Positions 5,721-18,870 of a DNA stretch of 20,181 bases are shown here, piece by piece (the first letter of the stretch is position 1; each line of letters starts with the position of its first letter). Source of the stretch: a virus. Made by a program: the position numbers and the translations under genes. The notes under the pieces were generated by a model. It was given only the letters and a program-made list of their open reading frames with translations. It searched no databases and had not been told where the DNA came from. The DNA lies in the IMG/VR virus record IMGVR_UViG_3300013100_000038, positions 1-20,181 of that record; one strand, written 5' to 3'.

Positions 5721-6061
5721 ACGCTGCCCCCCAGTTGCAGAGGCACGCTCAGGCTCAGCGGCTGGTTGTTGTCGACAATGGTGCCTTCGAACACCAGCGA
5801 CGCTTGGCCCTGAAGGTTCGCGCCGATGAACTGGATACGACTGAGGCTGATGCGGGTTTCCCAGCGCATCAGGGCCATGACGGTGGCGGCGTAGACCTGC
5901 AAGCGGGTGAAGTCGTTAAACGGCTGATCCACCAACTCAGGGAGCAGGCTGCCGTATTCGCGGCGCATGACGCGGGTGCCTATGCGAGTGGTCAGGATGT
6001 CGGTGATCGACTGGGCGATGTGTTCGACCAGGCCGAGGGCTGCGCCGGTTTCTCGGTTCAT
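5717..6061 (-). CDS. W: Baseplate wedge protein gpW (gp25-like)
   Basis: This 114-aa protein has the GPW/gp25 signature: EHIAQSI.DIL.T..GTRVMRREYGS.LPEL.DQP and the end DNNQPLSLSVPLQ. Both are close to P2 gpW (115 aa), a T4 gp25 homologue with the EPR-like core motif. It links sheath and baseplate wedges and has lysozyme-fold relatives without enzymatic activity. The start ATG overlaps the V stop (ATGA), and the stop overlaps the J start. Confidence 0.95.
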   Translation of the reverse strand: MNRETGAALGLVEHIAQSITDILTTRIGTRVMRREYGSLLPELVDQPFNDFTRLQVYAATVMALMRWETRISLSRIQFIGANLQGQASLVFEGTIVDNNQPLSLSVPLQLGGSV

Positions 6062-6630
6062 ACCGGCTTCTCCGTTTTCGCACCGCCGGGCATGACACCG
6101 CCGTGCAGGTGCTTCACCAGACTGATGCCGGCCGCGATGACGTCTTCGGACGCGGTGACCGTGCCGGTGATGTTCTGGTTGCCGGTCTGGGTGTAGTCGC
6201 CCTCATGCGTAATCGGGCCAACGATGTGGATGCCTCCGGTGCTGACTAGGTTGGTGGTGCCGCCTTCGGCCAGCGTGGCGTTGAGGTGGTGTGCGACGCT
6301 GTCGTACTCGATGACGGTTCCGTCACGGTAGGTCGTGCGGTGCAGGCCTTCGCGGTCGCCGTTGGCCGGCATGTTGTCGCTGAACAAGCCGGTCAGGACC
6401 ACGCCGTTGCCGAGTTGGCCGGAGGGGCTGAAGAGGATGACCTGTTCGTCAACGGTCGGCGGGTTCCACTCGCGGTCGGCACCGGCCCGCGCGGCTATCC
6501 AAGGGAGCCAGCCCGTGGTCAAGGTGCCGGTTTTGACCTGCACGCGCGGAGGCTTCACCTGGACGGCAGCGATGGTGCCGAGTCGGATGAGGTTTTCGAT
6601 CAGGCGGGCGAGGGTGGCTAAGTCGTTCAT
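6058..6630 (-). CDS. V: Baseplate spike protein gpV
   Basis: This 190-aa protein is the membrane-piercing spike of the tail. The N-terminal OB-fold region reads LIENLIRLGTI..., then RAGADREW.PPTVDEQVILFSPSGQLGNGVVL.G, aligning with P2 gpV. It then has beta-helix-like glycine/threonine repeats and a tip with a H-x-H motif (KHLHGG). In P2 gpV and its relatives H-x-H residues coordinate the iron ion of the trimeric tip. It is about 20 residues shorter than P2 gpV. The start has no convincing Shine-Dalgarno. It opens the V-W-J-I-H block, with the second TGTA-N11-TACA site about 56 bases upstream. Confidence 0.95.
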   Translation of the reverse strand: MNDLATLARLIENLIRLGTIAAVQVKPPRVQVKTGTLTTGWLPWIAARAGADREWNPPTVDEQVILFSPSGQLGNGVVLTGLFSDNMPANGDREGLHRTTYRDGTVIEYDSVAHHLNATLAEGGTTNLVSTGGIHIVGPITHEGDYTQTGNQNITGTVTASEDVIAAGISLVKHLHGGVMPGGAKTEKPV

Positions 6631-6676
6631 ACGCCGATGGTGGCTCTACGCGTGCGCAAGCGCAGCTCTGTCAACT

Positions 6677-6695
6677 TGTAGCAAGCTTGGTTACA
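6677..6695. promoter_or_regulatory. Late-operon palindrome TGTA-N11-TACA between V and the divergent cargo gene
   Basis: TGTA at 6677-6680 and TACA at 6692-6695 flank an 11-base core that is itself palindromic (CAAGCTTG). It lies in the 134-base region between V (minus) and the 263-aa gene (plus), about 56 bases from the V start and 79 bases from the cargo start. The arms and spacing equal those of the other two sites. This matches the position of P2 late promoter PV. No clear -10 or -35 box is visible in either direction. Confidence 0.6.
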
Positions 6696-6764
6696 GTCCA
6701 GTAATGTGCTGCTGTGACGGACGGGTCAACCACTCTCAACGGTTCAGAAATCAAAGGAATGTAA

Positions 6765-7556
6765 ATGAAATATATCTCACCATCTATAGAAGAAACTGCA
6801 TTCAACTGTCCGCACTGTGGGGCATTAGCTAAACAGTTTTGGTCAAGTGTGTTCATTGACGTACATTCCGAAGATAAACCGCTTCCTAGACTTATTGATA
6901 AGTCTTTTCTTGATGATTTGGATCTTGGCGATATAAAGGATTCTGCTGAGCGAGAAAGACTTCATTCTTGGTTTGTACGGTTGGCAGGAGGCGCGCCTTT
7001 TATCGATGTTAAGGATGATGGCACTTATTTGAGGCGTCAAATTAAGAATTGCAATATTAGTAACTGTTTTAACTGTCAGAAAATTTCGATTTGGATCTAC
7101 GATAAATTAATGTATCCAGTTGTTGGGGGTGTTGTTCCTGCCAATTCCGATATGTCTGAAGATATTAGACGTGATTATGAAGAGGCTGGATCGATTCTAA
7201 ATCAGTCACCTCGTGGGGCTGCAGCGCTTTTAAGACTTGCCATTCAAAAGCTTTGCAAGGAACTCGGACAGCCTGGCGAGAATATTAACGAAGATATTAA
7301 GTCACTTGTTGCAGCCGGATTGGATGCAAGAGTTCAGCAATCGCTTGACGCCGTCCGCGTGATTGGTAACTCAGCTGTCCATCCTGGGAAAATTGATATT
7401 CGGGATGATCGTGCAACTGCTGAAGCTTTATTCAAACTTCTTAATTTGATTGTTGATAAAACTATTTCCGAACCCAAGCACATTAAAGAAATATATGAAT
7501 CGTTGCCTGAAAACCTCCGGGAGGCGATTGCTAAACGCGATACCCCTAAGTCATGA
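6765..7556 (+). CDS. Zinc-ribbon / DUF4145-like protein, probable cargo gene
   Basis: This 263-aa protein is not part of the P2 core. The N-terminus has CPHC (Cys15, Cys18), and a second pair is CFNC (Cys101, Cys104), with Cys96 nearby. Together they suggest a zinc ribbon interrupted by about 80 residues. The C-terminal half (~135-240) reads YEEAGSILNQSPRGAAALLRLAIQKLC and later VRVIGNSAVHPG, the signature of DUF4145, a helical domain seen alone or fused to restriction and other defence proteins. The specific activity is unknown. AAAGGA precedes the ATG at 6765. The gene is visibly richer in A+T than its neighbours and lies opposite the late operon. Its stop overlaps the gpS stop by six bases, which suggests insertion as a moron. 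Confidence 0.85.
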   Translation: MKYISPSIEETAFNCPHCGALAKQFWSSVFIDVHSEDKPLPRLIDKSFLDDLDLGDIKDSAERERLHSWFVRLAGGAPFIDVKDDGTYLRRQIKNCNISNCFNCQKISIWIYDKLMYPVVGGVVPANSDMSEDIRRDYEEAGSILNQSPRGAAALLRLAIQKLCKELGQPGENINEDIKSLVAAGLDARVQQSLDAVRVIGNSAVHPGKIDIRDDRATAEALFKLLNLIVDKTISEPKHIKEIYESLPENLREAIAKRDTPKS

Positions 7557-8015
7557 AGTGCTTGTCAAATGTGCCAGGAGGCTGTCGCGGATCGAGTCTA
7601 TATCCTCGTCGACGAAGCCAAGTATCTCTCGTTGTTCGTACCTCACATCCGGTGCACCGCGTTCGGCCCTGTCTTTCAAACCGTACTGGTGCACCCTGGA
7701 GATTCGGGCGATTCGTCCTGTAAACCCGACGCTAATATTGTTTGCGTCGCCTTTAACTTTCAAAAAGCTCGCTGTGCGCAGCTTCTGAAACATCTGCACC
7801 TTTCGCTTCACCCGTCCTTGTTTCCCCCGCAGGTTGCGCTGCTTTCGCGGCGCGTATTTGCTGCCATCGGGGTTCTGCTGAGCAATGATTCGTTGCTGCT
7901 GGCTGCGCCTTAAAGCCTGGCCAACGCTCCGAGCCAACTTATTGCGCGCCGCCGGTTCAAGCTGGCCAAGCAATCCCGCCGCCCAGTCTTCCAGCGCTTC
8001 CAATCGGTTTGTCAT
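7551..8015 (-). CDS. S: Tail completion protein gpS
   Basis: This 154-aa protein (P2 gpS about 150 aa) matches the virion morphogenesis / tail completion S family. It has DWAAGLLGQLEPAARNKLARSVGQALRRSQQQRI..Q.NPDGSKYAPRK near the N-terminus. GFTGRIARISRVHQYGLKDR and VRYEQREILGF follow in the second half. It is needed to join heads to finished tails. ATG at 8015 forms ATGA with the gpR stop; the reading frame opens slightly upstream at 8030. In P2 gene V follows directly, but here the plus-strand DUF4145-like gene is interposed, so S ends its transcription block. Confidence 0.93.
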   Translation of the reverse strand: MTNRLEALEDWAAGLLGQLEPAARNKLARSVGQALRRSQQQRIIAQQNPDGSKYAPRKQRNLRGKQGRVKRKVQMFQKLRTASFLKVKGDANNISVGFTGRIARISRVHQYGLKDRAERGAPDVRYEQREILGFVDEDIDSIRDSLLAHLTSTS

Positions 8016-8488
8016 TGCGGCAGTACCCACTCGCTACCAGTACCTTGGGCGCCAGGTATCCAGTTCGGATCGAGAAAGTCAGCAGCTCGTTGCGGTTCGC
8101 CGGGGTGTCGAATGGTGGTGTTGCCCTGGTCATCCTTGCCCACCACCACACGCTCGGTCAGCGGCAGTGTCAGGCTCATATCCACTTTGCTGTTGTCGAG
8201 AATGTCAGCCTCGAATTGGATGCCATCAGCGGACTTGCTCAGGTTCTCCAGCAGTTCGGACTGATGGACGCTTAACCACCCGAGCAGCGGCAACATGACG
8301 CTATCGGGGTGGCCGGCGAAGTCTGTGAGGATGACCTGCAAATCGAAGCTGTACTCGAACGACAGCGTCTGCGCGGCGGTACAGCGGATCTTGCCGTTGT
8401 CGATGAAGATCAACAGTCGGTCGGGGTTGTGCTTGAGTTCGGCCACGGTGGCGAGCAGGTGCGCTTTCAGGCTGTCGGGCTTGTTCAT
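8012..8488 (-). CDS. R: Tail completion protein gpR
   Basis: This 158-aa protein is like P2 gpR (155 aa). It starts MNKPDSLKAHLLA and includes LLIFIDNGKI.CT....SFEYSFDLQVILTDFAGHPDSVMLPLLGWLSVHQSELL, the family core. It terminates the tail tube together with gpS. The start at 8488 overlaps the LysC stop as ATGA, so it is coupled to the lysis cassette as in P2. Confidence 0.95.
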   Translation of the reverse strand: MNKPDSLKAHLLATVAELKHNPDRLLIFIDNGKIRCTAAQTLSFEYSFDLQVILTDFAGHPDSVMLPLLGWLSVHQSELLENLSKSADGIQFEADILDNSKVDMSLTLPLTERVVVGKDDQGNTTIRHPGEPQRAADFLDPNWIPGAQGTGSEWVLPQ

Positions 8489-8742: not shown

Positions 8743-9028
8743 GTTTCAGAGCCTCGATGGTGAGTTCGCGCTTTGCCAGGCCTTGGCGCAGTTGATTCTG
8801 TTGCGCGCGCAGCGTGGCCTGGGCGTTGCGCTCCTGTTGCAGGGTGTCGCGCAACGCGTTGGCGTTGGCGAGGTTGTGTTCGGCTTGTTCTTGAGCGCGG
8901 CTGGCGTCTTGCTCGGCCAGTCGGGTGTCCTTGTTCGCCCCGCTGATGCGCAGCTCCTGGCTCCAGACCAGCAGTCCCAGAGCTGCAAGCAATGCAACGC
9001 CGAGCAAGGCTTGCCGCAAGATGGTCAC
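8585..9028 (-). CDS. lysB: Inner-membrane spanin LysB (Rz-like)
   Basis: This 147-aa protein has one N-terminal membrane segment (residues ~6-22, ALLGVALLAALGLLVW). A long coiled coil rich in Gln, Glu and Arg follows (~35-105), then the conserved LPDAARRLRERPALTGADAYRQWL end of the LysB family. It is the i-spanin partner of LysC. The start codon is GTG, forming GTGA with the stop of the upstream 68-aa gene. P2 LysB (about 141 aa) has the same place and role. Confidence 0.92.
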   Translation of the reverse strand: MTILRQALLGVALLAALGLLVWSQELRISGANKDTRLAEQDASRAQEQAEHNLANANALRDTLQQERNAQATLRAQQNQLRQGLAKRELTIEALKRENADLRNWAAQLLPDAARRLRERPALTGADAYRQWLSSRGALHPTGDQPAQ

Positions 9029-9231
9029 GCCCGGTACCAGCCGAGCTGGTTCATGTCGCCGATGTCCATGTGCTGGATCGGGCCACGAATGATGATGACT
9101 TTACGCTGAGGGTTCTGGATGCGGAGCGCGTCGCGCAGTTGCACCATGTCCTGCTGATCGCTGTCCTCTGGCACCACCAGCAGGTCGCCGTCTTGGACAT
9201 TCAGCCGCTGCACCGCGTCGAAGTCGATCAT
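9025..9231 (-). CDS. Hypothetical 68-aa protein in the lysis cassette
   Basis: The function is not recognised. The protein is acidic (MIDFDAVQRLNVQDGDLLVVPEDSD) and ends with a hydrophobic strand and short helix (KVIIIRGPIQHMDIGDMNQLGW). It has no signal peptide or membrane helix, so it is probably cytoplasmic. ATG at 9231 overlaps the endolysin stop (ATGA), and its own stop overlaps the GTG of lysB, so it is co-translated within the lysis operon. Its position matches P2 lysA, but there is no sequence or topology resemblance, since LysA is a membrane protein. The frame extends upstream to 9252, but the overlap supports 9231. Confidence 0.8.
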   Translation of the reverse strand: MIDFDAVQRLNVQDGDLLVVPEDSDQQDMVQLRDALRIQNPQRKVIIIRGPIQHMDIGDMNQLGWYRA

Positions 9232-10073
9232 GCGGCCACCGCCTGCCCACAACCGCAGTCATCGTGCCGCTCATAGGCGCGCTGGAGTTTGATGTCGTAC
9301 AGATTTCGCTGGTAGTCCGGCCCGTTGTAGAGCTTCGCAAACTCGGCCCATTTGCGGCTCTTCAGCGCCTTGTGCAGCACCGGGTCGGTCTCGATGAAGC
9401 GCACGAACGCATCGAACTGCTGCGACTCGTCGGTGCTCATGGCAGCGACAAAAGCCTGCACGCTGCTATAGCCCAGGCGCTGCCAGTGAAAACCCATGAT
9501 CTGGAACGCCCCCCAAGAGGCGGACTCCAGCGCGGCGGTGTCATCGATCAAGCGAGCGGTTGCCAAGCGCTGGTGTTCGGCGCTGCCGCCGGCATAGCCA
9601 CCCGATTTCGGATTAACGATTGCAGGGTTGGTCGCGGCCAACTGGTCAGCGTGTAGTTTCAACGCTGCCGGATCGTCGCCTTCATGCCGCACCTTCGACA
9701 GTTGGCGATACATGATGTGTCGTTCGAACAGAATCACCGGCTTGCCATTGTCGAGGAAGCCATTACCCTTCGACTCGACTTCATTGACGGCGCAGACGCT
9801 GGCCAGCGGCACGCCGAGACGTTCGGCGGCGTTGACCAGGTCGGTGTTTCTCAGCAACTGCTGGCAATCATTACCGGCGAGTGCGGCCAGCGTTTTGTTG
9901 CCGGCGACTCCGTCGACGACCAGGCCGACTTTGAACTGATAAGCGCGCACGGCGGCCTCTGTGGCATCGCCGTAATCACCGTCGATTTCCAGCTTGGCGC
10001 CGTGTTGGTTGAGGATCTTTTGCAGGGTACGCACCGCTTGCGAGCGATCCCCATGACGTAAAATCGTGGTCAT
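9228..10073 (-). CDS. Endolysin: peptidoglycan-binding domain plus N-acetylmuramidase
   Basis: This 281-aa protein replaces P2 gpK. Residues ~8-66 form a PG_binding_1 repeat (GDRSQAVRTLQKILNQHG...IDGDYGDATEAAVRAYQ...VDGVAGNKTLAAL). Residues ~80-275 match the N-acetylmuramidase (DUF3380) family, with VCAVNEVESKGNGFL holding the expected catalytic glutamate (Glu98 or Glu100), then LFERH and SWGAFQIMGFHW. There is no signal peptide, so release depends on the holin. The start at 10073 was chosen because GAGGG lies eight bases upstream and overlaps the stop of the preceding gene. The frame stays open to 10367, but that would overlap the preceding gene extensively. Confidence 0.93.
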   Translation of the reverse strand: MTTILRHGDRSQAVRTLQKILNQHGAKLEIDGDYGDATEAAVRAYQFKVGLVVDGVAGNKTLAALAGNDCQQLLRNTDLVNAAERLGVPLASVCAVNEVESKGNGFLDNGKPVILFERHIMYRQLSKVRHEGDDPAALKLHADQLAATNPAIVNPKSGGYAGGSAEHQRLATARLIDDTAALESASWGAFQIMGFHWQRLGYSSVQAFVAAMSTDESQQFDAFVRFIETDPVLHKALKSRKWAEFAKLYNGPDYQRNLYDIKLQRAYERHDDCGCGQAVAA

Positions 10074-10083
10074 GTGTTGGCCC

Positions 10084-10443
10084 TCAGCAGGTGGGTAGGT
10101 TATTGCTGGTTGCTTCGGAACAAAACCGCCGAGCCTCGGCTCTCGCGACTTCCTGCATGGTCGAATTTCCTCCGGCCTCCCAAGGTACGAAGCCCGGTTT
10201 TTCTGCCCAGCTTTCGTAGATGCGGCGAGCGTCGGCTTCGATCTGCAGCACTGCTGAGTCGTCTGGGCATTTGGAAAGTTCTGCTTCAAGCGCCTGGTTC
10301 TTAAGGCGATCGAGAAAGCTGCACATCTGTAACTGTGTGTGCTTGATTCGGTGTTTGCCGCTCTCACAAATTGTCAGAACTTCTGCTCGGAATTTCTCAA
10401 GTTGCTCGACTCGTTGCACAAGCGTTTCGTGCGTACTTTTCAT
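10084..10443 (-). CDS. Hypothetical 119-aa helical protein between holin and endolysin
   Basis: The function is not recognised. It is mostly alpha-helical with coiled-coil character near the start (THETLVQRVEQLEKFRAEVLTICE) and a Cys-containing C-terminus. No membrane segment or signal peptide is seen. ATG at 10443 has a very strong AGGAGG five bases upstream. An in-frame ATG at 10473 that overlaps the holin stop (ATGA) would add ten residues. P2 has no equivalent here, because Y is followed directly by K. A cytoplasmic lysis-timing regulator or a small accessory gene is possible; nothing in the sequence decides. Confidence 0.75.
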   Translation of the reverse strand: MKSTHETLVQRVEQLEKFRAEVLTICESGKHRIKHTQLQMCSFLDRLKNQALEAELSKCPDDSAVLQIEADARRIYESWAEKPGFVPWEAGGNSTMQEVARAEARRFCSEATSNNLPTC

Positions 10444-14324: not shown

Positions 14325-14343
14325 TGTAAGGGCGGGGGCTACA
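14325..14343. promoter_or_regulatory. Late-operon palindrome TGTA-N11-TACA between divergent P and O
   Basis: TGTA at 14325-14328 and TACA at 14340-14343 flank 11 bases in the 169-base divergent region. The centre is about 57 bases before the P start and 113 bases before the O start. It is the third copy with the same arms and spacing. P2 has divergent Ogr-dependent late promoters PP and PO at this place. A small palindrome (GTTGC-G-GCAAC, 14304-14314) lies beside it on the O side. Confidence 0.6.
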
Positions 14344-14390: not shown

Positions 14391-16148
14391 ATGACTACGA
14401 CCGCACTGCTGCCCATCGATCCCCGCCGCCAATCCAAGTTTCTCTACTGGATGGGTTGGCGCATCTGCGAGATTGCCGAGGCTACGGGCGAAAAGGAAAA
14501 AACGCTACACAGCTGGAAGGCCCGCGACGAGTGGGATCGGGCCGACAACGTCGAGCGAATTGGTGGGGCGTTGGAAGCGCGGCTTGTGCAGTTGATCCTG
14601 AAGGACAACAAGAGCGGCGGCGACTTCAAAGAGATCGACCTGCTGCACCGGCAGTTGGAGCGCCAAGCTCGGATCCAGCGCTTTCAAGGGGGCGGTACCG
14701 AAACCGACCTTAATCCGAACCTTGCCAAGCGCAACGCCGAGCCGAAGAAAAAGGCCGTCAAAAACGAGATTGATGAAGACCAGATCGAGCTGCTGCGCGA
14801 GGCCTTCATCGATGGCTGTTTTGACTACCAGAAGGACTGGTACCGCGCCGGCAATCAGCGCACACGCGTCATCCTCAAAAGTCGGCAGATCGGCGCGACG
14901 TACTACTTCGCCCGCGAGGCGTTCATCGATGCGCTGGACACCGGGCGCAACCAGATTTTCCTGTCGGCTTCGAAGAACCAGGCCTACCTGTTCCGGGGCT
15001 ACATTCAGGCGTTTTGCCGCGAAGTGATCGGCGTTGAACTGACCGGTGACCCCATCGTGTTGCCCAACGGCGCCGAGCTGTTTTTCCTCGGCACCAACGC
15101 CCGCACTGCCCAGGGCTACCACGGCAATTTCTACTTCGACGAATTCTTCTGGACGTTCAAATTCGAGGAATTGAACAAGGTCGCCTCGGGCATGGCGATG
15201 CACAAGAAGTGGCGCAAAACCTACTTTTCCACGCCGTCGAGCATGGCTCATGAGGCGTACACCTTCTGGACGGGCGAGCGCTTCAACAAGGGCAAGCCTG
15301 CTGCGCAGCATACGAAGGTGGACGTTTCCCACGGCTCATTGCAGCAGGGCCGATTTTGTGAGGATCGGCTGTGGCGCCAGATCGTCACGATTCTGGATGC
15401 GGAGCGGGGCGGGTGCGACCTGTTCGACATTGAAGAGCTGCGCCGCGAATACAGTCCCGAGGCGTTCGCCAACCTGCTGATGTGCGAGTTCGTCGACGAC
15501 GGCGCGAGCATCTTCCCGCTGACCCTTTTGCAGTCGTGCATGGTGGACAGCTGGGTCGAGTGGGCCGAGGACTACAAACCCTTTGCCATGCGCCCGTTTG
15601 GCGATCGACAAGTCTGGATTGGCTACGACCCGGCCGAGACGGGCGACTGTTCCGGCATGGTCGTGGTCGCGCCGCCCCTGGTACCGGGCGGCAAATTCCG
15701 CATCCTCGAACGCCACCAATTCCGGGGCATGGACTTCGCCGCACAAGCCGCGTTCATCAAAAGCGTCTGCGACCGCTACTGGGTGACCTACATCGGGATT
15801 GACGTGACCGGCCTGGGCAGCGGCGTGGCCCAGCTGGTGCGGCAGTTCTTCCCGGCGGTGACCACCTTCAGCTACTCGCCCGAAGTCAAAACCCGCTTGG
15901 TACTCAAGGCCTACGACGTAATCCACAAGGGCCGGCTCGAATTCGATGCTGGCTGGACCGACATGGCCCAGTCGCTGATGGCGATCCGCAAGACCATCAC
16001 CGCCGGCGGACGCCAGTACACCTACACCGCCGGCCGCAACGACAACACCGGCCACGCCGACCTGGCCTGGGCGCTCTTTCACGCATTGCACCACGAACCG
16101 CTTGAGGGGCAGACCACTGCCAACACCGGGCGCATGGAGATTTACTGA
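14391..16148 (+). CDS. P: Terminase large (ATPase) subunit gpP
   Basis: This 585-aa protein (P2 gpP about 590 aa) powers DNA packaging. It has an N-terminal helix-turn-helix (residues ~22-43, ICEIAEATGEKEKTLHSWK) and the TGGDFKEID-like SGGDFKEID linker. The Walker A-like segment is LKSRQIGAT (162-170) and Walker B is YFDEFFW (248-254). An RNase H-like C-terminal domain has candidate metal-binding Asp413 (GYDPAETGD), Asp471 (GIDVTG) and Asp557 (HADLAW). The start has no clear Shine-Dalgarno. It is transcribed away from O and coupled to Q by a one-base stop/start overlap (TGATG). Confidence 0.97.
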   Translation: MTTTALLPIDPRRQSKFLYWMGWRICEIAEATGEKEKTLHSWKARDEWDRADNVERIGGALEARLVQLILKDNKSGGDFKEIDLLHRQLERQARIQRFQGGGTETDLNPNLAKRNAEPKKKAVKNEIDEDQIELLREAFIDGCFDYQKDWYRAGNQRTRVILKSRQIGATYYFAREAFIDALDTGRNQIFLSASKNQAYLFRGYIQAFCREVIGVELTGDPIVLPNGAELFFLGTNARTAQGYHGNFYFDEFFWTFKFEELNKVASGMAMHKKWRKTYFSTPSSMAHEAYTFWTGERFNKGKPAAQHTKVDVSHGSLQQGRFCEDRLWRQIVTILDAERGGCDLFDIEELRREYSPEAFANLLMCEFVDDGASIFPLTLLQSCMVDSWVEWAEDYKPFAMRPFGDRQVWIGYDPAETGDCSGMVVVAPPLVPGGKFRILERHQFRGMDFAAQAAFIKSVCDRYWVTYIGIDVTGLGSGVAQLVRQFFPAVTTFSYSPEVKTRLVLKAYDVIHKGRLEFDAGWTDMAQSLMAIRKTITAGGRQYTYTAGRNDNTGHADLAWALFHALHHEPLEGQTTANTGRMEIY

Positions 16149-17170
16149 TGACCGAACCACTCGCCAGCCAGACGTTGCCCGCGACGACACCCGCCACTGG
16201 CGCGGGGACTCAGGTGTTTTCCTTTGGCGAGCCGACGCCGGTGCTGGGTGGCCGGGAGGTTTTCGATTACCTGGAATGCTGGTTCAACGGGCGGTGGTAT
16301 GAGCCGCCGCTGTCATTGGATGGACTAGCCCGGTCGGTGGGAGCGAGTGTGCATCTGCATTCCGGGTTGATGTTCAAGCGCAATCTGTTGAGCAAGACAT
16401 TTATCCCGCATCCGCTGCTGTCGCGGGCTTCGTTTGAGCAGTTTGCTTTGGACTTTCTGTGCCTGGGCAATGGCTACCTTGAAGGGCGCCGCTCGCGGTT
16501 GGGCGGGGTGCGCAAATTGGAAACGCCGTTGGCCAAGTACATGCGCGCTGGGCCGGAAGGGCAGTTCTATCAGGTGCGTGGGTGGAAGGACGAACACGCC
16601 TTTGACCAGGACAGCATTTTTCACCTGCGTGAGGCGGATCTGCACCAGGAAATTTATGGACTGCCGGAATGGATCAGCGCGTTGCAGTCGGCGCTTTTGA
16701 ACGAGTCGGCGACGTTGTTTCGGCGCAAGTATTACGAGAACGGGAGTCATGCCGGGTTCATCTTGTACATGACGGATGCGGCGCAGACCGAGGCGGACAT
16801 TGACGCATTGCGTAAGGCTCTGAAGGAATCGAAGGGGCCAGGCAATTTCCGGAATTTGTTCGTCTACTCGCCGACCGGCAAGAAGGACGGGATCCAGCTG
16901 ATCCCCGTCAGCGAGGTCGCGGCGAAGGATGAATTCAACTCGATCAAGAATCAGACGCGGGATGACGTGCTGGCAAACCTGCGGATTCCACCGCAGCTGA
17001 TGGGAATTGTTCCGCAGAACGCGGGGGGGTTTGGGTCGATTCGGGAGGCGGCGCAGATTTACGCGGCCAATGAACTGGAGCCGATTCAGACGCGAATGAT
17101 GCAGTTGAACGACTGGCTTGGTGAGGAAGTTGTCCGATTCAGAGCATACGAAATCGGGCAAGAGAGTTAA
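16148..17170 (+). CDS. Q: Portal protein gpQ
   Basis: This 340-aa protein (P2 gpQ 344 aa) belongs to the phage portal family. Family blocks include VFSFGEPTPVL, SVHLHSGLMFKRN, FLCLGNGYLE, IFHLREADLHQEIYGLPEWISALQSALLNESATLFRRKYYENGSHAGFILYMTDA and NLRIPPQLMGIVPQNAGGFGSI. It forms the ring at one capsid vertex through which DNA enters and to which the tail joins. In P2, Q lies next to cos and is read toward it. Here the same orientation holds, but two accessory genes lie between Q and the probable cos. Confidence 0.97.
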   Translation: MTEPLASQTLPATTPATGAGTQVFSFGEPTPVLGGREVFDYLECWFNGRWYEPPLSLDGLARSVGASVHLHSGLMFKRNLLSKTFIPHPLLSRASFEQFALDFLCLGNGYLEGRRSRLGGVRKLETPLAKYMRAGPEGQFYQVRGWKDEHAFDQDSIFHLREADLHQEIYGLPEWISALQSALLNESATLFRRKYYENGSHAGFILYMTDAAQTEADIDALRKALKESKGPGNFRNLFVYSPTGKKDGIQLIPVSEVAAKDEFNSIKNQTRDDVLANLRIPPQLMGIVPQNAGGFGSIREAAQIYAANELEPIQTRMMQLNDWLGEEVVRFRAYEIGQES

Positions 17171-17189
17171 CTTTGAGTCGATTTCAAAG
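17171..17189. repeat. Inverted repeat at the portal/cargo junction
   Basis: CTTTGA (17171-17176) and TCAAAG (17184-17189) flank seven bases, immediately after the Q stop codon. It marks the boundary between the GC-rich phage core and the AT-rich accessory gene. It is too short and has no T-tract to call a terminator; an operator or insertion scar is possible. Confidence 0.35.
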
Positions 17190-17293
17190 TGGGGCTGGTC
17201 TGGTCGCTGAAGAAACCTGGCTTTAATGCTTTGGAAGTTGCGGAAGGTTTGTGGCTTAATCGTTTTTCTCAGCCAAGGACTGTCGGAGTCACC

Positions 17294-18112
17294 GTGATCT
17301 ACGAAAAGAAAGAAGAGACGAATGGTAAATATATTCTCGGGGTGGCCTTGCTGGCATGTGTTTTAATCATTGAGTTGTTCTATCTGTATGCGGATTTTTC
17401 GAAAGAGTTTTGGGGGATTAAATTTGTTGATGTGGCAAATATTATTGCCCAATTTGCCACGGCGGCCGCATTTTATTTAGGTTTTCATCAGTATCATAGG
17501 AATAAAAAGGTAGAGCGGCAGGCAGTTATAGTATTGGAGTGTAAGAATTTAATATTGAAGATGGTGGCCGTAAGCAAGGAGTTTGATGTCGGAGAGGGTA
17601 CTAGTTTCTCCAATATTAAATATTGCTGTACAAAACTTGGCAATCTTGGGTCTGACTTTAATGTGTTGTTTACTGCCTTAGATGAAGGCATTCAAAAAGC
17701 AATAGTTAGGATGCACTGGCAGGAAATGTATTTTAATGAGCTTCTGCACGTGATGCAGGGTCTTGAGCTGCGCTCGGCCGTTAGCTCTACTGATGGCGAA
17801 AAGTTGTATTATTTTGTCGTTCGAGATGATGCTCGTAGGAAAGCTAAAGCTGAAAATGTTTTAGAGGTTTTTTTAAACTATTTTATTTTAAAGGAGGTTT
17901 TAACTCATTACGCTGAGTCGGAGTTGTTAGGCTTTACGTTTGAATTCTCGGATCTTTATTTTTTCTTTCTGTTCTTTTTTGAAAGTAAATACACAAATGA
18001 TTATATGTATGGAAATATGGCGCGGTTGGATGTTAGAGCGAGAGCGCCAATGATTGCCGCTATAAAGGATGTGTATAAAATCGACATCGAAATGTTTGCT
18101 CCAAAAAAATAA
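17294..18112 (+). CDS. Two-transmembrane accessory protein, candidate exclusion gene
   Basis: No known family is recognised. The frame opens at GTG 17189, but GTG at 17294 has GGAG five bases upstream and gives 272 aa. Two hydrophobic segments lie near the N-terminus (ILGVALLACVLIIELFYLYADF and VANIIAQFATAAAFYLGFHQY). A basic stretch (HRNKKVERQ) and a helical, Phe/Tyr-rich cytoplasmic domain of about 180 residues follow. Base composition and codon use are far more AT-rich than in Q. It is co-directional with Q and convergent with the next gene. P2-like phages carry tin, old and other exclusion genes in this cos-proximal interval. That context suggests a membrane-linked anti-phage or superinfection-exclusion role, but this is inference. 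Confidence 0.75.
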   Translation: MIYEKKEETNGKYILGVALLACVLIIELFYLYADFSKEFWGIKFVDVANIIAQFATAAAFYLGFHQYHRNKKVERQAVIVLECKNLILKMVAVSKEFDVGEGTSFSNIKYCCTKLGNLGSDFNVLFTALDEGIQKAIVRMHWQEMYFNELLHVMQGLELRSAVSSTDGEKLYYFVVRDDARRKAKAENVLEVFLNYFILKEVLTHYAESELLGFTFEFSDLYFFFLFFFESKYTNDYMYGNMARLDVRARAPMIAAIKDVYKIDIEMFAPKK

Positions 18113-18141: not shown

Positions 18142-18849
18142 TTAAGGTTTAGTCACAAAACCTTTACCCGAGCAGATCGGACATTCTTCGCTTTGTCCGA
18201 ATCGGTCACGACAGACGGGGCATGTGCAGAAAGCTGCTGACTCGATAAAGGGGCGTAGCTTTTCAAACGCGTGCAAGTCCCTCTCTTCTTGAGCAACCTG
18301 TGCCGCATTAACCAGAGCACGATAAGTGTCCGGATCGTCTAGGGGTTTACGGTCAACTCCGGCAATCACCCGGTCAGTTTCAATCAGCCGGTATCGTCGT
18401 CCATTCATTTCTAGGATCAGTCCTACGATTTTCCCGATCTTCCGGGAAAGACCCATAGTCAATCGCACACCGTCCGTATCGGAGTAAACCTTCCCGTCAT
18501 AGGTAGACGAGGCGCCGCGCGGTTCCTCAGTCGTGAAGTTGAAGATCGAGCGGCTGATTGTGCCCAGCAGCTTGCCATTGGTGACCTGCACGACGTTGTA
18601 GGTCGATGCGCCACGGTAGTGATCAGGTGAATTCTGCAGTTCCTCGACGGTGTGCCAGTAGGCTGCGTCTGCCATCTCGTTCATATCAAACCGTTCAAGC
18701 TGATCGATCAGCCCCTCGTCAAACAACGCAGCTGCCATCTCGTGGAGTGTTTCCCGGTGCGCCTCGGGGTTTTGCATTCGAAAGTCCTTATCGTCGAGGG
18801 TCAAACGCCATCGCTGCATCCTGAGAGCTTTAGCCTGTCCGAAGTTCAT
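18142..18849 (-). CDS. SOS-controlled protein with C-terminal zinc ribbon
   Basis: This 235-aa protein is not in the P2 core and its family is not recognised. The N-terminal third is helical and charged (AHRETLHEMAAALFDEGLIDQLERFDMNEMADAAYWHTVEEL). The middle has beta-type sequence, including GLILEMNGRRYRLIETD. The C-terminus has CPVC and CPIC separated by nine residues, a CxxC...CxxC ribbon followed by SGKGF, as in DnaJ-like zinc modules. ATG 18849 is preferred. A GTG at 18867 lies only three bases from the LexA box, and neither start has a good Shine-Dalgarno. The near-perfect LexA box just upstream implies DNA-damage induction. It may be an antirepressor-like switch, as Tum is in phage 186, but it shows no DinI/Tum similarity that I can see. 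Confidence 0.8.
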   Translation of the reverse strand: MNFGQAKALRMQRWRLTLDDKDFRMQNPEAHRETLHEMAAALFDEGLIDQLERFDMNEMADAAYWHTVEELQNSPDHYRGASTYNVVQVTNGKLLGTISRSIFNFTTEEPRGASSTYDGKVYSDTDGVRLTMGLSRKIGKIVGLILEMNGRRYRLIETDRVIAGVDRKPLDDPDTYRALVNAAQVAQEERDLHAFEKLRPFIESAAFCTCPVCRDRFGQSEECPICSGKGFVTKP

Positions 18850-18870
18850 GAAAATCAATCGCTGCACAAA

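Follow-up and report, generated by a model that had tools for sequence, protein, structure and literature searches.

An AT-rich gene lies between the genes for the baseplate spike (V) and tail completion (S) of a P2-like Pseudomonas phage. What is this gene, what kind of place does it occupy, and what may its product do for the phage that carries it? The window analysed here is the whole virus record of 20,181 bases, which contains the late genes of the phage. Further in this study the gene and its product are referred to as the cargo gene and the cargo protein, and the stretch between S and V as the S–V junction or slot.

The cargo gene and its neighbours

The cargo gene occupies positions 6765–7556 of the plus strand, starts with ATG and encodes a protein of 263 amino acids with a zinc ribbon and a DUF4145 domain of predicted HEPN fold, belonging to the PD-T7-4/RAZR family. 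The Shine-Dalgarno sequence AAAGGAA (6753–6759, plus strand) is located 5 nt upstream of the start codon. At the corresponding position of 11 homologous slots, AAAGGA or AAGGGA was found in nine and GGGGGG in the two most distant ones. In 500-nt windows, the GC content equals 39.6–40.0% in the cargo gene versus 56–66% in the flanking genes. Gene V (6058–6630, minus strand) was recognised by its matches to PF04717 (Phage_base_V, 3.6e-14) and PF18946 (Apex motif, 1.9e-7), and gene S (7551–8030, minus strand) by its match to PF05069 (Phage_tail_S, 5e-37). The cargo gene and S are convergent and overlap by six bases, with the stop codons at 7554–7556 and 7551–7553, respectively. The scan of positions 6500–7700 yielded neither a sigma-70-type promoter on the cargo-gene strand nor an intrinsic terminator. 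Another open reading frame in the junction (86 aa, overlapping V) has no relative in the junction set and was discarded as a chance frame. The cargo gene is a real gene, and the initial annotation had correctly described its AT-rich composition, its own Shine-Dalgarno sequence, its orientation opposite to S and V and the identity of both neighbours.

The S–V junction in P2 and its relatives

According to the initial annotation, V follows S directly in P2, and the S–V junction might be a further hotspot for inserted genes. The former statement is wrong for the P2 genome (NC_001895), where S (8915–9367) is followed by a putative terminator, Orf30 (9439–10224), an activator site (10239–10266) and V (from 10308). 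Orf30 is annotated as nonessential and is encoded on the strand opposite to S and V. Hence the cargo gene sits where P2 has orf30, rather than breaking up a compact S–V junction. It has the features of that locus, being located between S and V, ahead of the activator site of the V operon, and dispensable. The two genes are alike in their place, in their strand and in their length of about 260 codons, whereas the protein sequences are not: homology of the cargo protein to Orf30 was considered and rejected for want of sequence similarity (11.5 bits, E 21).

Variation at this site has been reported. PMC3091744, citing Nilsson and Haggard-Ljungquist (2007), states that P2-like phages very often have genes that P2 lacks in their TO, Z and orf30 regions, and PMC6823313 describes a different 741-bp open reading frame at the orf30 position of R18C. 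The S–V site was therefore already known to vary. As to defence hotspots, the parts of PMC9122126 and PMC9519451 that we consulted show only the two other sites.

The junction was compared in 171 sequences, that is, 170 loci and the present record. Both S and V were present in 158 of them, yielding 97 distinct junctions (alleles). The S–V spacing ranges from 58 to 2855 nt with the median of 974 nt; the neighbouring spacings are nearly fixed, at −20 to −16 for R–S (n = 97), −19 to 5 for V–W (n = 94) and always −1 for W–J (n = 90). Cargo occupies the junction in 94 of the 97 alleles. The other three (L056, L077 and L081) are empty, with S and V 67 nt apart; thus phages without S–V cargo exist. 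The median GC content of the cargo is 42.8%, compared with 57% for S and 64% for V, and in 59 of the 94 occupied alleles the longest cargo reading frame is antiparallel to the late genes. The cargo forms 47 blastp clusters, one of which is a spurious frame of the present record, so that 46 are real. The variation among relatives on which the proposed hotspot depended is abundant, and the junction is a cargo hotspot as had been suggested; it is not a new one, given the earlier descriptions of the orf30 region.

Single representatives of 41 of the 46 clusters were scanned against the PADLOC profiles. At the threshold of 1e-5, 11 clusters matched, namely PD-T7-4, PDC-S15, AbiV, PDC-S31 (two clusters), PDC-M36A (partial match), PDC-S45, SduA (Shedu), PifA, PtuA and PtuB (both Septu), while 30 had no match; names starting with PDC denote candidate systems. 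Five short representatives were covered by the pooled PADLOC scan only, for which 25 of 203 families were listed. The matching clusters hold 30 of the 94 occupied alleles, 12 of them with PD-T7-4. The commonest cargo after PD-T7-4 is the cluster of L080:5478–6278, which is present in 11 alleles and has no PADLOC match at 1e-5. Some slots hold several genes: a Septu-type pair of PtuA and PtuB is accompanied by a third gene at L059:1819–4331, and the slot of L098 (about 2.7 kb) contains genes from the PDC-S15 and PDC-S31 clusters with a third gene between them.

A probable late activator box at the edge of the slot

The V operon is preceded by the palindrome TGTA-N11-TACA (6677–6695, minus strand), which forms a fixed edge of the slot. 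Two further copies are located at 2172–2190, in front of the operon that starts with the tail sheath gene (FI), and at 14325–14343, between the genes for scaffold (O) and terminase (P), which are divergent. The three exact copies in the 20,181-nt record compare with 0.06 expected. The pattern TGT-N13-ACA is found 65–67 nt before V in all 97 alleles (0.4% in shuffled sequences), and the V activator site annotated in P2 lies at a matching distance, its spacer being two bases shorter. We infer that the palindrome is probably an Ogr-like late activator box. In each empty allele, the stop of the S reading frame falls within the box. The point of cargo entry therefore always lies past the end of S and ahead of this putative activator site.

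Other cargo sites and genes of the window

The G–FI junction (2132–2202), which corresponds to the Z/fun cargo site of P2, is about 70 nt long and seems to lack cargo, unlike the orf30 and portal-side sites, both of which are filled. The portal-side site, at the tin/old-type cargo place of P2 directly after the portal gene (Q, 16148–17170), holds a second AT-rich gene (17189–18112, plus strand; about 37–47% GC) with an uncertain start codon, whose product has two N-terminal hydrophobic stretches. It had no Pfam match above the cut-off, no PADLOC or NCBIfam match and no relative in phage records, and we regard it as a candidate defence gene. The cargo sites of P2 all seem to be located at the ends of late operons. 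The gene at 18142–18867 (minus strand) is a phage gene (PHROG 19595, 2.4e-87) whose product ends in a CxxC-rich, zinc-ribbon-like stretch.

Family assignment

Residues 139–214 of the cargo protein match DUF4145 (PF13643) with E 2.7e-16 and 59.9 bits, the cut-off being 23.1. The match to PHROG 1305 (1.7e-32) links it to relatives labelled "DNA binding protein", and NCBIfam gave only a chance match far below the cut-off. In PADLOC the protein belongs to PD-T7-4 (PDLC04109, 4.1e-82), the best of the two matching stretches covering residues 90–260. The sole solved sequence relative is PDB 9y9c (E 7.1e-55; the next row of the profile search had E 0.33), a "DUF4145 domain-containing protein" of 219 residues that occurs in 24 chains. 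This entry, titled as the in vitro reconstituted RAZR:GP77 complex, is a map with fitted AlphaFold models. RAZR is a ring-activated zinc-finger RNase. The RAZR chain stretch itself falls into the PD-T7-4 family of PADLOC (5.4e-86), and as both it and the cargo protein match one profile, PD-T7-4 and RAZR are a single family by that test.

Vassallo et al. 2022 (PMC9519451) describe 21 systems, PD-T7-4 among them, each of which lowered plating of the phage used for its selection; PD-T7-4 was selected experimentally. One system is ascribed there a zinc-finger-like and ribonuclease-family architecture, and from the architecture we infer that PD-T7-4 is meant. In PMC12447246, PD-T7-4 is one of the systems associated with the resistance of Pseudomonas strains to some phages. 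The cargo protein resembles PD-T7-4 in being encoded by a single gene, in the profile match and in this architecture, but the profile has 211 positions, and the cargo protein has a longer segment between its two zinc knuckles and is encoded in a P2-like tail-gene slot. With RAZR it shares the sequence match and the PADLOC family; RAZR differs in its length of 219 residues and its short inter-knuckle segment, and the cargo protein superimposes on it loosely. The defence context suggested at the outset has thereby gained a precise family name, PD-T7-4, that the initial annotation did not give. The cargo gene is a further example of a known anti-phage family at a known variable site; the combination is new.

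Predicted fold

An AlphaFold model based on 16 sequences was poor (pLDDT 66) and was replaced by a model based on 85 aligned sequences, with the mean pLDDT of 89.9 and pTM of 0.69. In this model, a split zinc ribbon precedes a HEPN fold (residues 129–263; positions 7149–7553, plus strand). In the comparison with 993 chains by VIA-align 2, the best row was 2hsb (Z 13.1, rmsd 3.1 over 111), along with 1ufb (Z 11.0, rmsd 3.4 over 110) and 2q00 (Z 10.2, rmsd 2.7 over 106). The lower HEPN rows include 1wol, Csm6', MntA-HepT, AbiA, AbiV, MtlR and prophage HepS. Z-scores up to 13–14 can arise for helical bundles, and helical rows other than HEPN occur too, such as RC3H2 ROQ with Z 10.5. Mcl-1, vinculin and receptors in the Foldseek and VIA-align lists are unrelated helical proteins and were set aside. 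The C-terminal domain is assigned to the HEPN fold at the level of the model because HEPN entries dominate the fold list and DUF4145 is placed in the HEPN superfamily in the part of PMC3710099 that we consulted; the HEPN-like fold anticipated by the initial annotation is thus borne out by prediction.

Taken over its whole length, the model fits 9y9c loosely (VIA-align Z 8.8, rmsd 7.1 over 164), which is also the sole Foldseek match below 1e-3 (E 2.7e-9, rmsd 8.5). The viral fold library yielded one match (5.7e-6), the unnamed protein A0A482IIS2. HepS of the Gifsy-1 prophage (PDB 9oij/9oik) is another prophage-encoded HEPN fold (VIA-align Z 7.0, rmsd 3.7 over 113) and, by the entry title, its structure has also been determined in complex with the J tail tip of phage lambda. 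It differs from the cargo protein in its sensor part, lacks a sequence match to it and has Foldseek E 0.45.

Conserved motifs and uneven rates

From 96 extracted homologues, six with lengths outside 150–420 aa were dropped, and the remaining 90 were aligned. The putative active-site motif R198-V-I-G201-N202-S-A-V-H206 (7356–7382, plus strand) is located at the end of helix 188–205, which in the model stops one residue short of H206. R198, G201 (at the place before N202), N202 and H206 are identical in all 90 proteins. The canonical HEPN motif given in the cited part of PMC3710099 is Rx4-6H, and zinc ribbon fusions are listed there for DUF4145. The cargo protein agrees with that description in its predicted fold, in the histidine at the end of helix 3 and in the fusion to a zinc ribbon, but it has seven residues between R198 and H206 (R-x7-H); due to this spacing, it is filed under DUF4145/PD-T7-4 rather than among the HEPN RNases with the canonical motif. 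R-x7-H is a spacing variant of Rx4-6H. The initial annotation had considered the motif a possible degenerate active site, which is unlikely in view of its complete conservation, and the Arg, Asn and His that it had proposed to mutate are among the invariant residues.

Two CxxC knuckles precede the DUF4145 domain, as in PD-T7-4/RAZR proteins, and putatively bind zinc, in keeping with the zinc ribbon noted earlier. The first one is C15-P-H-C18 (6807–6818, plus strand; C15 and C18 each 95.6% conserved, n = 90), and the second one is C101-F-N-C104 (7065–7076, plus strand; 97.8% and 98.9%, respectively, n = 90). The knuckle-to-knuckle length, measured in 85 proteins, is mostly bimodal, with 20–49 residues in 44 and 70–89 residues in 36 of them. 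F13, C15, P16, C18, Q24 and W26 are at least 90% conserved across both groups. The inter-knuckle segment has 82 residues in the cargo protein versus about 20–50 in many shorter relatives, hence its trigger may differ from theirs.

Most of this segment, residues 27–96 (6843–7052, plus strand), evolves fast and is a candidate region of sensor specificity. In 10 slot homologues, the mean amino-acid identity equals 88.0% for residues 1–26, 42.6% for 27–96, 66.1% for 97–128 and 88.6% for 129–263. In the five closest ones, the mean dN for the same regions is 0.023, 0.117, 0.074 and 0.006, so that dN of the segment is about 20 times that of the HEPN domain, while pairwise dS is of similar order in both (0.28–0.61 and 0.10–0.51). 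A near-frozen effector joined to a fast N-terminal module would fit a protein composed of a sensor and an effector, and the contrast in rates points at the N-terminal module as the sensor. As dN is lower than dS in residues 27–96, relaxed constraint would also explain the fast segment.

Distribution of the cargo gene

Twelve alleles contain the cargo gene. Seven of these entered the set solely through searches with the gene itself and one is the present record; with this selection bias removed, the gene is present in four of the 89 alleles fetched via S or V. In the genus of Pseudomonas sp. LD120, homologues at E ≤ 1e-15 were found in 18 of 398 genomes (19 matches). The three most similar ones are located between S and V (L254, L256 and L257); in the short flanks examined for the other 16, neither S nor V was found. 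S itself has a relative at 1e-30 in 60 of the 398 genomes. Among 30 S loci examined, 28 have V in the flank. V is 58 nt away in seven of them (empty slots) and 694–1361 nt away in the other 21, three of which carry the cargo gene. A DNA search of complete E. coli genomes found nothing.

Proposed function and alternatives

We propose, with a probability of about 0.7, that the cargo gene is a moron-type gene for a single-protein abortive-infection effector of the PD-T7-4/RAZR family, in which a sensor is combined with a HEPN RNase switched on by a phage oligomer. The proposal builds on the family match, the fold model, the conserved motif, the uneven rates and a slot that relatives fill with Shedu, Septu, PifA, AbiV and PDC-type genes. 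The rest follows by analogy: a defence phenotype is expected because the PD-T7-4 relative came out of an experimental selection, and an assembly with a phage protein because the RAZR:GP77 entry contains 24 chains of a DUF4145 protein. The R-x7-H spacing, the loose whole-chain fit to 9y9c and the lack of a recognised promoter speak against it. The C-terminal HEPN-fold domain would be the RNase, and the N-terminal split zinc ribbon with its fast inter-knuckle segment would be the sensor. Expression in a lysogen would depend on the gene's own signals, at a time when the flanking late operons are silent, and the product would be held inactive. Once a large oligomeric (ring-like) protein is produced by a competing phage, many copies of the cargo protein would assemble on it, the HEPN sites would become active, RNA would be cleaved, translation would stop, and the superinfecting phage would fail.

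The nature of the trigger is where an alternative carries some weight. The protein could be a defence RNase of the PD-T7-4 family that responds to something other than a ring-like phage protein, for example a nucleic acid (DNA or RNA) at its zinc ribbon or a specific small phage protein, its 80-residue segment marking a functionally distinct branch. The two main groups of knuckle-to-knuckle lengths, the loose superposition on 9y9c in the parts beyond the HEPN domain and the PHROG 1305 label would agree with this, but the same six residues around the first knuckle are kept across both length groups, which suggests a shared mode. We consider another trigger unlikely. The "DNA binding protein" label, together with the adjoining late-promoter activator box, could also indicate a gene that regulates the phage's own cycle (lysogeny or the late promoter) and has no part in defence. 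A regulator of this kind would hardly be confined to so few of the S/V-fetched alleles, be replaced by unrelated genes in the others or be missing altogether from the empty junctions, and the family that the protein matches is a defence system; this reading is quite improbable. Still less credible is an inactive, decaying HEPN remnant. It would account for the non-canonical spacing of the motif, but the reading frame is intact, the motif is invariant, and the low dN of the HEPN part against its dS indicates purifying selection.

Implications

Returning to the ring-sensing effector, we tentatively suggest, at less than even odds, that Pseudomonas P2-like phages have in the orf30 slot a third hotspot dedicated to defence, located, like the two known ones, where a late operon ends, and that RAZR-type cargo is a modular ring sensor whose inter-knuckle segment would be retuned to rival phages and blind to the portal ring of the carrier. 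A recently named and structurally studied defence family is carried here by temperate phages that need a ring-shaped portal of their own. This poses a testable question, namely, how a ring-sensing effector carried by a phage would ignore that phage. Moreover, a slot bounded by a fixed late-promoter box, with most of the singly scanned cargo clusters (30 of 41) lacking a PADLOC match, may be a practical source of candidate defence genes.
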